Of a DNA stretch of 64,000 bases, positions 16,235-19,939 are shown one piece after another. Each line of letters begins with the position of its first letter. Position 1 is the stretch's first letter. The notes beneath the pieces were generated by a model. The model ran no database searches. It was given only the letters and a program-made list of their open reading frames with translations, and was not told the DNA's origin. The DNA is from Leptospiraceae bacterium. Lineage in GTDB: Bacteria > Spirochaetota > Leptospiria > Leptospirales > Leptonemataceae. The DNA lies in the NCBI GenBank assembly GCA_002717505.1, contig PBEB01000022.1, positions 57,561-121,560 of the forward strand. Direction: 5' to 3'. The translations under genes were made by a program, and so were the position numbers.

Positions 16235-17155
16235 TCAGTGACCAAATAGGATGCGACCCAGTCGGGCAAAAAACCTTGAAAGATGATAATGAGTCATGCC
16301 GGCCATGCGTTTATGCAGGCCCGCTTTTAGCTCAAATACCGCTTCTGCAATAGCAGGAAAGTCCGGCAATCGTTCGCTGGATTTCAAGATCATAAGCCCG
16401 ATTAGATCCAGCACCTCTTCATAGCTTCGGTCCAGATGAGTTTTCCATCCCTGAAAATTCTTCTCAAGGGCCACGTAGGTTTCCAGTTCATTCAAGCCCA
16501 TGGGATGGCCCAGCCCATCCTCGATTTTTTCCTTTAACTTGATGAAGCTCTCGTCCAGGATCAGGTTCGATAGTTCCAGGCTACCCCCCATCAGATCCAG
16601 AATGTAAGGGTCCGATTGGCCGGTAATATCTGCCATAGTGGATGCAGGAATCAATTGGAAGGGAATGCAAACACCGCGGCTTATAATCGTTTCTTTTAGT
16701 AGCTCCAGATCTTCCACCATCAAAATGAACCGGGAGTGATCCGGTGGCTCCTCCAGAGTCTTTAGCAAGGCCGTTTCTGCTTCGTTTTGAATCAAGTCTG
16801 CTCGCGGCATCAGGATAAACCGTCGCTGACCTTTGAAAGGCGGGTACATGAGTCGCGTCCGGATGAGCCAGCGAACCGTAAATGGGGCTGGTTGCTTTTC
16901 ATCTCCAATGAGTACTCGTTCCTCTGGAAAGAGGATATAATCCGGATGCTCCTGTCGCGCAAAAAGTCTGCAAGAAGGACATTGACCGCAGCCATTTCCA
17001 ATGTCACAGAGTGAACACTGAATAAACCATTCCGCAGCGCTGAATTTGCCCACCCCGGCAGGGCCGTGTAGTATTAAAAGTGGAGGTGCTGGCTTGCTTA
17101 GATAATGGTCCAGCATGGACCGGGCGATGCTCTGACCTTTCAGCTGGAAGCTCAT
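16235..17155 (-). CDS. holB: DNA polymerase III delta' subunit-like clamp-loader ATPase
   Basis: The 306-residue protein has a Walker A-like GPAGVGKFSAA, a four-cysteine zinc motif (CDIGNGCGQCPSC), an AETALLKTLEEPP sensor region and an SRG in the place of the SRC motif. This arrangement is that of clamp-loader subunits. The degenerate SRC and missing clear Walker B acidic box favour the delta' subunit over the gamma/tau ATPase. It would help load the beta clamp during replication. It stands alone on the minus strand, with no tmk or tatD next to it. The ATG at 17155 has no strong ribosome-binding site. Confidence 0.82.
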   Translation of the reverse strand: MSFQLKGQSIARSMLDHYLSKPAPPLLILHGPAGVGKFSAAEWFIQCSLCDIGNGCGQCPSCRLFARQEHPDYILFPEERVLIGDEKQPAPFTVRWLIRTRLMYPPFKGQRRFILMPRADLIQNEAETALLKTLEEPPDHSRFILMVEDLELLKETIISRGVCIPFQLIPASTMADITGQSDPYILDLMGGSLELSNLILDESFIKLKEKIEDGLGHPMGLNELETYVALEKNFQGWKTHLDRSYEEVLDLIGLMILKSSERLPDFPAIAEAVFELKAGLHKRMAGMTHYHLSRFFARLGRILFGH

Positions 17156-17214: not shown

Positions 17215-17247
17215 AAAAAACCCGGCCTCCTCATGTGAAGGGCCGGG
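17215..17247 (-). terminator. Intrinsic terminator (minus strand)
   Basis: On the minus strand CCCGGCC (17241-17247) pairs with GGCCGGG (17221-17227) around a 13-base loop and is followed directly by TTTTTT (17220-17215). No protein gene ends here on the minus strand. This is the main reason to suspect a non-coding transcript to its right. Confidence 0.8.
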
Positions 17248-17365
17248 CTGCATCTGAACACACTCTTTCCCGATCTGTCGCCGACTTTTCATCGGCGCGG
17301 ATACTCGCCTGTTGCGAGTAATGAGTGAACGGATACCTTTTAATCTCCCCCTTAAAAGAATCCGT
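17215..17365 (-). ncRNA. Candidate structured small RNA with intrinsic terminator
   Basis: Read on the minus strand, four helices follow one another. Hairpin 1 pairs 17360-17365 with 17329-17334 and 17352-17358 with 17337-17343 around a GGGGGAGA loop. A closing helix (17323-17327 with 17261-17265, GAGTG/CACTC on the plus strand) encloses hairpin 2 (17314-17320 with 17302-17308, 7 bp) and hairpin 3 (17292-17297 with 17279-17284, 6 bp). The last is a 7-bp GC-rich terminator hairpin (17241-17247 with 17221-17227) followed by six T on the minus strand. No open frame is credible here. It does not match the consensus of tmRNA, RNase P RNA, SRP RNA or 6S RNA as far as I can judge. A cis-acting role for holB, about 60 bases downstream, is possible but unlikely. 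Confidence 0.5.
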
Positions 17366-17874
17366 CAATAGTAATGCACGGCGTGTACCAGGTAGAAGCC
17401 GACGGGGCAAAAAAACCGTCTATCCACGAGTTTGGGGTCTTTTTTTTACGAATCTGGCATGGAAATGTAAATGGTGCCCGGTAAAAACACATCCCATGCT
17501 TGCTCAGGGGCTCATTGGTGCTTCGAAATCTCCGATGCAGCTGTCTCGAAATCCCGGCCAATTGCCAGAAAGCACAAAAAATAGACACCCCCCGCTTCGT
17601 GTCGGCCTAAAAGTAGTCGAGGCACAAAAATTATGCGTTGCGCCTGGGAGGTTCCCTCAACCCGGTTGTCTTTTGAAGACCATCCAGGGCTCAGCGGAGG
17701 AGGAGTGAAAGGTCCGCGGTTACGGTTTTGCCTGGAATCTACAAGAATCCTTCCCTGGGGCATCGAAATTCGAAAAGTCATAAGCGAAAGTTGGGTTCGC
17801 CCGGGCATGGGCATCGTAGTAAAAATTCCCAATCATAGAACTGGATGAAAAGAAGGCCAGTTCAAGGATTCTAT
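17366..17874. other. Intergenic region without a supported gene
   Basis: About 500 bases with no credible coding frame on either strand; the short open frames have odd composition and no ribosome-binding sites. It contains several A/T runs, a GACGG/CCGTC hairpin at 17401-17420, and a second weak terminator-like element on the minus strand (GACAC/GTGTC, 17584-17603, followed by TATTTTTT). These may belong to further small RNAs or to the 5' region of the candidate RNA. Confidence 0.5.
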
Positions 17875-17909: not shown

Positions 17910-18509
17910 ATGCGAAAATATAGATTCCTTGCAGTGGTTGCCATTCTGGCCATTTGTTCGGCGACTTACTGCAAGTCCGGTGACGAAGAGCCATCCGATG
18001 ATCAAGAGTTATTGAATCTTCTGGATGTAAATGTGGCCAATGGTATATTCTGGGTTGGCAAGACGAGTCAGAATAGCTGTAACGCGGGGGATGCAGCAAC
18101 TACGGCGACGGTCTGTTTTAATCAAACCACCCTGGAGAATACATATCTTTCAGGGGAGACAACAAATATTAATCTCTATCTTCCATCAGGTAATCCGCCT
18201 GCAGGGACCGTGAGTATTCTGGTGCCTCATCCAGACAACTCCTCGCTGAATACCTTTGATATTGCAGTGAGCGGCGACCTCTCAGGTGGTTACGAAACAG
18301 GCAACGGTGTGAGTCGTGTGCTAACACTTTCGGCCACCGGGGCTACAACAGCCAGCAATTCTACAGTTCAGGTTCAAATGGTAAGCTTTCGGGCTCAGCA
18401 AACCGAGAACACGGTGGAAGGAACCATCGTAGTGCGATTTGTTCGGGCCAGTTCTAGCAATCCGAGCTACGACGTTGAATACAGCTTCTCCATGGACAGG
18501 CAGTACTGA
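17910..18509 (+). CDS. Exported protein, probable lipoprotein, unknown function
   Basis: The 199-residue product begins with a charged MRKYR and a hydrophobic core ending in ICSATYC, a loose spirochaete-type lipobox with Cys21 as the likely lipidated residue. The mature part is rich in Thr, Ser, Asn and Gly, predicted beta-rich, with one extra Cys pair (NSCNAGD and TVCFNQ). I recognise no family. The stop overlaps a possible ATG of the next gene, and the real start of the barrel gene lies 17 bases downstream, so the two form an operon. Its job may be linked to that outer-membrane protein. Confidence 0.75.
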   Translation: MRKYRFLAVVAILAICSATYCKSGDEEPSDDQELLNLLDVNVANGIFWVGKTSQNSCNAGDAATTATVCFNQTTLENTYLSGETTNINLYLPSGNPPAGTVSILVPHPDNSSLNTFDIAVSGDLSGGYETGNGVSRVLTLSATGATTASNSTVQVQMVSFRAQQTENTVEGTIVVRFVRASSSNPSYDVEYSFSMDRQY

Positions 18510-18526
18510 TGGAAGGGGAAAAAAGA

Positions 18527-19939
18527 ATGAAAAAGATGCGAAATCTAAGAATTATTACAGTCCTGCTTTCCCTTGCACTTGCAGCACCGGCGATGGCGGA
18601 AGCGGATCCTACCGGCTGGGCGATTCAGCCCCTACCTCTGGTCAGCGCCAGCTCTGACGATGGGTTCGGCTATGGTCTACGTGTTTACGGTACCTACAAA
18701 GATGCAAAGGCTGAGCCCTATAAATACCAGATTTACGGGCAGTACTATGCGACGACTCGTGGTTACGAATTCCATGAGCTTTCTATCGACGCAGTGGACT
18801 TTCTGGATTCTTCCTTCCGAATTATTACCCGGATCGGAGTGGAAAGAACACTGAATGCACAGTGGTATGGCACAGGCAACTATCAGGACATTCAGCGACA
18901 GAAGAAGATCAAGAACGGAGAAATTCCAATCAACGAAAACGTGCGATTGGATCCGACTACCGGTCAGCCCTTGCGCGACCTTTACACTTTCGAAGAATAC
19001 AGCGACTCGGTCTACTCTCTGAATACACGGGCTCTTTTAGGGCCAGGGGCCGGAGATTTCTTGAACCCCGGTAGAAAGCTTCTGAAGCAAACCCAGGGTA
19101 AGTACTTCTATTACGACCGAATTCGACCTTTTCTGATGATGTCCACAGAGCAATGGATGGGTGATACAAACTTCAAATGGTTTGTCGGACTGCGCGGCCA
19201 GAGCTACAAAATCCAATCCTACGCAGGCGATTACGAAGGCGGGGACAAATTGCCTAATTCCAGAACTCTGATCGATATCGAGAAACCTCTGGGGTACGAT
19301 GCCACCGAAAATAATCGATATGTGAACGGTGTTCGAGGAGCGCTGATATATGATTCCCGACCCAGGAAGCGTGAAATCAATCCCAACGCAGGGATTTTCG
19401 CCGACATCCACATTGAAGGCGTAGGTAAAGGAACGGGAAGCAACTATTCCTTCATGCGATACACTGCAGCATGGAGACAGTACATCGAGCTAATGCCAGG
19501 ATTCTTTAATCCGCAGGACCGGGAGCTAGTTTTCGCATATCGCATTCTCGGGCAGAAAACCACGGGCGATGTTCCTTTCTATGAAATGGGCCGCATTTAC
19601 ACATCTCGCGAAAACGCTGAAGGTCTGGGTGGCAACGGAGGTCTGAGAGGGTATCCCGCCAACCAGTTTGTAGACCGAGTAATGGGTATGGCTAACTTTG
19701 AGATGCGTCTAACAACATTCAGTGTGGATGCTCTGGGTGGGATTGATTTCATTTTCCTTGGCTACTATGACCTGGGACGTGTAGCTCCCACCAATCGTGA
19801 GATGACTCTCAAGGGTTTGCACCGGGCTTACGGCGGTGGTGTTCGTTTACTATGGCAAGAAAATGTTGTGATCAACATTTCCTACGGCCGGTCTCAATAT
19901 GAGTCCAATTTTAACTTTGGATTCAACCACATGTTCTAA
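18527..19939 (+). CDS. Outer-membrane beta-barrel protein, Omp85/BamA-TamA C-terminal (surface antigen) type
   Basis: The 470-residue protein starts with a cleavable signal peptide (LLSLALAAPAMAEA). The mature part is a beta barrel with aromatic-rich alternating strands, a GGLRGYPANQFV motif (the LRGY signature of Omp85-family barrels) and a C-terminal Phe. POTRA domains are not evident, so this is a short family member like the patatin-associated or 'BamA/TamA family' barrels and not BamA itself. The ATG at 18527 is preceded by a strong AAGGGG ribosome-binding site. It follows a lipoprotein gene in the same operon, and a strong terminator closes the unit. Confidence 0.85.
   Translation: MKKMRNLRIITVLLSLALAAPAMAEADPTGWAIQPLPLVSASSDDGFGYGLRVYGTYKDAKAEPYKYQIYGQYYATTRGYEFHELSIDAVDFLDSSFRIITRIGVERTLNAQWYGTGNYQDIQRQKKIKNGEIPINENVRLDPTTGQPLRDLYTFEEYSDSVYSLNTRALLGPGAGDFLNPGRKLLKQTQGKYFYYDRIRPFLMMSTEQWMGDTNFKWFVGLRGQSYKIQSYAGDYEGGDKLPNSRTLIDIEKPLGYDATENNRYVNGVRGALIYDSRPRKREINPNAGIFADIHIEGVGKGTGSNYSFMRYTAAWRQYIELMPGFFNPQDRELVFAYRILGQKTTGDVPFYEMGRIYTSRENAEGLGGNGGLRGYPANQFVDRVMGMANFEMRLTTFSVDALGGIDFIFLGYYDLGRVAPTNREMTLKGLHRAYGGGVRLLWQENVVINISYGRSQYESNFNFGFNHMF

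Follow-up and report, generated by a model that had tools for sequence, protein, structure and literature searches.

GlmY of enterobacteria and CrcZ and NrsZ of Pseudomonas are sigma-54 RNAs, and a C/U-rich seed is common among the small RNAs of enterobacteria. Qrr of Vibrio is described as another sigma-54-dependent small RNA (PMC10162802). In E. coli, the cfa mRNA is reported to be acted on by several small RNAs, namely RydC, CpxQ, ArrS, GcvB and OxyS (PMC6755755, PMC12691595). For the spirochete Leptospira interrogans, the reported sigma-54 regulon comprises amtB and two lipoprotein genes, with EbpA and EbpB as activators (PMC12655853). Post-transcriptional control in Leptospira relatives is little charted, and the host group of the locus described here consists mostly of uncultured spirochetes. 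The accessible part of a study of transcription start sites and small RNAs in L. interrogans (PMC5243855) names no RNA of the kind described here, and the words RpoN, sigma, holB and nitrogen do not occur in the main text of a small RNA study in L. borgpetersenii (PMC13224635). None of the literature matches listed concerned a sigma-54 RNA in this spirochete group.

Here, we analysed a stretch of 64,000 nucleotides (the window) from a Leptospiraceae bacterium (contig PBEB01000022.1; genome G000), and we consider it reasonably probable that the minus strand at 17366-17215 specifies a structured and conserved small RNA, about 150 nt long, that is driven by sigma-54 and an enhancer as part of an environmental response and acts in trans by pairing with C/U-rich mRNAs. 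Like Qrr, GlmY/GlmZ, CrcZ and NrsZ, this candidate would be a stand-alone RNA gene; a -24/-12 element, sites for an enhancer-binding protein further upstream and an intrinsic terminator are all predicted for it. Unlike them, it belongs to a different phylum, adjoins holB and finds no match in Rfam by sequence or by structure, and it is G-rich, in contrast to the C/U-rich seed of the enterobacterial RNAs. The window's relatives resemble L. interrogans in having sigma-54 together with more than one enhancer-binding protein; the reported sigma-54 targets of L. interrogans are protein genes, and in the window's family neither the 20 glnA loci nor the eight amtB upstream stretches read have the paired dyads. 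We regard the locus as a candidate for a real, conserved RNA gene, of a new family and of a kind already known.

The candidate RNA element and its conservation in the genus

The preliminary description had proposed a structured small RNA on the minus strand, and this is supported as the best reading of the element by a conservation stronger than that of holB, a sigma-54 element, an intrinsic terminator and the lack of a conserved ORF (Table 1). The gap of 754 bases in which it was placed proved exact, running from the start of holB (17155, minus strand) to an ORF start at 17910 (plus strand). When the minus strand of 17375-17205 was folded, the energy was -66.3 kcal/mol, whereas shuffled sequences averaged -45.4 (z = -5.1), and none of the 200 shuffles was equally stable. 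The fold contains the GGGGGAGA loop, the CACUC/GAGUG helix around two hairpins and the terminator with its U run, all as originally described; in hairpin 1 the purine-rich loop was correctly recognized, but the computed stem has 15 base pairs rather than 13. The element had also been called free of open reading frames, and no conserved ORF is indeed present, yet a 59-aa TTG frame (17231-17410, minus strand) spans most of it, and two further ORFs of at least 50 aa clip its 5' end. One-base indels that separate the species put the 59-aa frame out of register. A peptide starting from the GUG after GGGAAAGA was considered and rejected, as the frames beyond it differ among genera when compared by eye. 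On the other side of the gap, the ORF at 17910-18509, which has no family match, precedes a gene for an Omp85-family outer membrane protein (18509-19939; NF047779, E 4e-93).

Table 1. Positions of the RNA element, its control region and related features (window coordinates unless a locus is given)
Feature	Position	Strand	Description
Small RNA	17215..17366	(-)	predicted start ~17364 (+/-2), predicted end at the U run; fold z, identity, model match
Hairpin 1	17328..17366	(-)	15 pairs; loop GGGGGAGA at 17351-17344
Multiloop with CACUC/GAGUG closing helix	17261..17327	(-)	two hairpins inside: 17320-17302, 17300-17270
Conserved strand GGGAAAGAGUGUGUUCAGAUGC	17250..17270	(-)	invariant in 4 species; AGAGUG part also in other genera
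Intrinsic terminator	17215..17249	(-)	GC-rich hairpin and U run
Sigma-54 -24/-12 element TGGTACACGCCGTGCA (GG-N10-GC)	17375..17390	(-)	9/11 consensus letters
Upstream dyad 1 CGCATAATTTTTGTGCC	17621..17637	(-)	predicted enhancer-binding-protein site; -247 from sigma-54 element
Upstream dyad 2 TGTCTATTTTTTGTGCT	17571..17587	(-)	-197 from sigma-54 element, 50 bp from dyad 1
holB, DNA polymerase III delta-prime subunit	16235..17155	(-)	next gene downstream of RNA; PF13177, E 1.8e-25
G016 copy candidate	L154:387-558 (G016:C300)		away from holB; sigma-54 element, two dyads, terminator
cfa complement of hairpin 1	L079:1436-1456 (G002)		codons 9-15 of cfa

Rfam at the gathering score gave no family at the element and only a tRNA in the 64-kb window, and at E values up to 10 it gave two weak matches at the element, both far under their cut-offs. 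ARAGORN found tRNA-Phe only in the window, and a search of eight related loci against Rfam at E up to 1 gave one match, which scored 27.3 bits where the cut-off is 55. The preliminary description could not match the element to tmRNA, SRP RNA, RNase P RNA or 6S RNA either. 6S RNA (RF00013) had no match in the window, and the genome's own 6S match lies at G000:C74:81015-81162; tmRNA, SRP RNA, RNase P RNA and other Rfam families gave none above the gathering score at the element. A CsrA sponge of the CsrB/RsmZ type, which carries many GGA motifs in loops, was rejected because just two GGA sites are conserved in the genus.

At E up to 1, BLAST searches of 61 genomes produced matches in 31 of them, and near-full-length matches were found only in the genome carrying the window and in three of its four genus mates (91, 95 and 98% identity), each of the three directly 5' of holB. 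The fourth genus mate, G003 (78% complete), has neither the RNA nor a holB match, its sole HolB-like match being weak. When the window's genome was compared with the other three, identity was 90-99% in the RNA body and 85-100% in the terminator, against 69-81% in the 5' part of holB and 36-43% in the upstream 210 bases. The RNA element is thus conserved more strongly than the adjacent holB in the genus, and with 91-98% identity set against these values its conservation is not a matter of chance. The preliminary description had proposed a covariation test. Of 50 pairs compared across the four sequences, 44 were invariant, two changed on one side and four departed by unpaired cells; changes on both sides were found in none of the 50, since the RNA is nearly invariant among the four sequences. 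The fold fits the four sequences and is not proven by covariation. Many of the variable columns fall in hairpin loops and in the tip of the terminator hairpin, which differs in G001. A model built from the genus alone (R1) matched the element in its own genome (G000:C22:74775-74926), and over 30 genomes of the order it gave the four genus members and a weak match in G012 (E 0.0046), which was rejected as it reads as a terminator-like hairpin.

Sigma-54 element and paired upstream dyads

The preliminary finding included neither the sigma-54 control region nor the relatives in other genera. In all four genus species, the GG and GC of the element are kept at N10 spacing while the intervening bases vary, and it scores 9/11 in three species and 8/11 in G004. 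Since the element alone is not rare, with 16 sites of at least 9/11 on the two strands of the 64-kb window, we argue for it from its place and conservation. With the C counted as -12, transcription is predicted to begin near 17364, which is at the 5' arm of hairpin 1. A scan for sigma-70 promoters gave two sites, neither in front of the RNA. The sigma-54 gene rpoN is present in 31 of the 33 genomes examined, including the one carrying the window.

Both upstream dyads are AT-centred and have the form TGCA-N9-TGCA, which we take to resemble an NtrC site. We scored them with matrices of sites chosen by eye, from which the sites of the tested group were omitted. With the matrix from other genera, dyad 1 was the top place (13.9 bits, a score reached in 1 of 200 shuffles) and dyad 2 the second best (7.9 bits), and these ranks were the same in all four genus species, with the dyads always 50 bp apart. 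The dyad was the top place of the matrix in nine of ten loci; shuffles scored as high in 0-4 of 200 cases in those nine and in 21 of 200 in G016. The genus and G019 show a clear partner dyad 50-53 bp away (53 in G019); the partner is weak in L. illini (0.8 bits), G021 (1.3) and G005 (-0.2), and G011 lacks it. We tested 45 sigma-54-like sites across 400 kb of L. illini for a dyad at -300 to -140, and the best reached 10.3 compared with 14.8 at the RNA locus. At 17408-17448, with the dyads on one side and the sigma-54 element on the other, the window has a second series of A and T stretches (GGGGCAAAAAAACCG ... GGGGTCTTTTTTTT, plus strand), which are unconserved in the genus alignment.

Close to rpoN, the window's genome encodes a receiver/AAA+/Fis-type regulator together with a HAMP-type histidine kinase, and the two would form an NtrX/NtrY-like pair. 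The regulator scored 440.7 bits against the NtrC cut-off of 558.6, which was passed in none of 22 genomes, and it may be one activator candidate for the RNA. All eight genomes looked at have another receiver-type regulator, whose C-terminal helices are very similar; for G000 (88% complete) it is not listed at the cut-off used. We then considered nitrogen control through an activator of amtB and glnA. Among 20 glnA loci (L172-L191), a sigma-54-like element lies upstream in 16, the window's own genome not being one of them, and single dyads were seen in four, with no 50-bp dyad pair; upstream of amtB, no dyads were found at the matching place (30 loci scanned, eight read). Because the dyad pair is absent from the glnA and amtB stretches read, nitrogen control through such an activator is unsupported and a nitrogen role is not implied. 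Sigma-54-like elements without paired dyads do occur upstream of several amtB genes (L123, L125, L132, L135, L138, L144), and a TTTTTAAGCA run is common to three of these stretches (L132, L135, L138).

Counterparts in other genera

A holB match was found in 19 family genomes, 18 of which have sequence upstream of it (304 bases only in G014; none in G012). In nine of the 18, holB is preceded by a sigma-54 element, a candidate RNA that contains AGAGUG or AGAGAG, and a terminator; these are the four of the genus, Leptonema illini 3055T (G009; locus G009:C1:3475258-3475391, minus strand), G011, G021, G005 and G019. The RNA of L. illini would be about 110 nt long and start some 12 nt beyond the GC of its sigma-54 element. 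Three g3 genomes lack the sigma-54 element and show AGGAAGAGTG with a terminator, and six loci (G008, G010, G014, G015, G016, G017) have no such RNA before holB. A scan of 17 family loci found AGAGTG or AGAGAG ahead of holB in 12. A similar layout, with a dyad, a sigma-54 element, an RNA containing a G-run and the AGAGUG strand, and a terminator, is seen before holB in L. illini and in a second genus; it appears in reduced form in a third genus and probably sits elsewhere than holB in a fourth. The sigma-54 element has all 11 of 11 consensus letters in L. illini (TGGCACAGGGTTTGCT) and G005, and a G-run is found near the RNA start in L. illini (GAGGGGAAA) and in three of the four g2 genomes, being absent in G011.

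A profile from other genera recovered the L. illini locus at full length (E 5.4e-7) amid a 400 kb decoy, and model R1 gave 10.3 bits (E 0.33) at the syntenic place. Leave-one-group-out profiles did not place g1, g2, g8 or G016 above the decoys. Among the other genera, only L. illini is thus recovered from sequence alone, and because sequence profiles fail beyond it, the family claim there rests on position, promoter and dyads. The copy in G016:C300, away from holB, is graded as probable because its score with model R2 is just 13.4 bits. Its dyads lie at -213 and -161, 52 bp apart; a AAAGAGUGUUCA-like run occurs twice, a sigma-54 element and a terminator are present, and the locus adjoins a 396-aa ORF that we read by eye as a cysteine-synthase-like protein.

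Model R2 was scanned over 48 genomes of the class and then over 22 of the family, with 60 and 132 first-look candidates scored per genome; as these were part of the first-look candidates, absence from other genomes is not firm. A match in G031 was rejected, since a coding frame underlies it and the spacing of its GG and GC is 11, and weak matches in G011:C12, G005:C13, G013, G014, G017, G019:C3, G021:C3, G022 and G032 were not counted as members; L159 and L205-L208 were scanned for the sigma-54 element and the others were judged from alignments. The named control region offers a handle for seeking further family members, and the sigma-54 element, the tandem dyads and a counterpart in the culturable L. 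illini make RNA-mediated sigma-54 control directly testable in these spirochetes.

Possible modes of action and candidate targets

We suggest that an enhancer-binding protein would occupy the two upstream sites 50 bp apart, that sigma-54 RNA polymerase would then transcribe the structured RNA of about 150 nt, and that its G-rich loop and purine-rich strand would pair in trans with C/U-rich mRNAs, with Hfq presumably helping the RNA to act. What can be read directly at the locus is the predicted fold, its conservation, the GG-N10-GC spacing, the two dyads, the terminator and the similar layout beside holB in other genera. The position of the RNA on the holB strand, just 5' of the gene, in the genus and in G009, G011, G021, G005 and G019 would also suit a cis-acting leader, in which the sigma-54 transcript is an attenuator before holB and a ligand or protein decides on passage of the terminator, and the multiloop with its invariant joining strands may look aptamer-like. 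We consider such a leader unlikely. All the loci examined fold with a strong hairpin at the terminator, no competing antiterminator appears in the minimum-energy or centroid fold, and the probable G016 copy sits apart from holB.

The same purine-rich segments could instead sequester CsrA, Hfq or a similar RNA-binding protein through the loop GGGGGAGA and the strand GGGAAAGAG. Both carry GGA motifs, and A-rich runs precede AGAGUG in other genera; but the genus conserves only those two GGA sites, and in L. illini and G021 the 3' site is replaced by GGUAG(AG), so that the strand GGUAGAG lacks GGA, and we regard titration of this kind as quite improbable. It is very improbable that the element has no function as RNA and owes its conservation to DNA-level elements, such as protein sites or a terminator common to the neighbouring genes. 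The absence of covariation in all 50 pairs would agree with this, whereas several genera show promoter, predicted start, body and terminator in the expected succession and consistently spaced, and the variable columns of the genus are often those of hairpin loops and terminator tip.

With regard to pairing in trans, it is plausible that the GGGGGAGA loop binds C-rich sites, as had been proposed from its Shine-Dalgarno-like sequence. Besides the RNA itself, a single match at E <0.01 was found in the 61 genomes, a perfect 21-nt complement in the cfa gene of G002 (E 0.0013). At the matching codons, cfa of G000 and G004 keeps ATTTCCCCC, giving nine pairs with the loop, and that of G003 has ATCTCCCCG; cfa starts with a shorter C-rich core than in G002 are found in L086, L087 and L088. 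The calculated RNA-cfa duplexes were -44.3 kcal/mol in G002, -31.1 in G000, -29.4 in G004, -25.0 in G003 and -17.5 in G001; for comparison, 21 of 2128 window segments reach -31.1, 68 reach -29.4 and 508 reach -25.0 kcal/mol. Synonymous shuffles of cfa did as well in 0 of 500 cases for G002, 20 for G000, 105 for G004 and 98 for G003, so that the pairing, strong in G002 and moderate in G000, exceeds the shuffles in these two and not in G004 and G003. As the complement is lost in G001 and absent outside the genus, cfa was rejected as a conserved target and is a weak candidate, the one that can be named. The RNA would share with the cfa-acting RNAs of E. coli a candidate target in the same gene family; it differs in being unrelated to them, in its possible site within cfa codons 9-15 and in the weak support for its pairing.

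A wider reading, which we put forward as doubtful, is that an environmental signal governs membrane lipid modification through a family-wide sigma-54 RNA of Leptonema-type spirochetes. The G-rich hairpin of this RNA would open to pair over up to 21 nt with the coding start of cfa, further C-rich targets would be reached as well, and the RNA would define the first regulon of its kind, under sigma-54 and enhancer control, in spirochetes. L. interrogans is reported to have an Hfq-like gene (PMC5243855). The window's genome has two Hfq paralogs, at G000:C46:24834-25022 and G000:C26:14750-14929, of which one is a strong match at 103.5 bits and the other is divergent at 56 bits, and Hfq is present in 21 of 22 family genomes, most of which have two paralogs.
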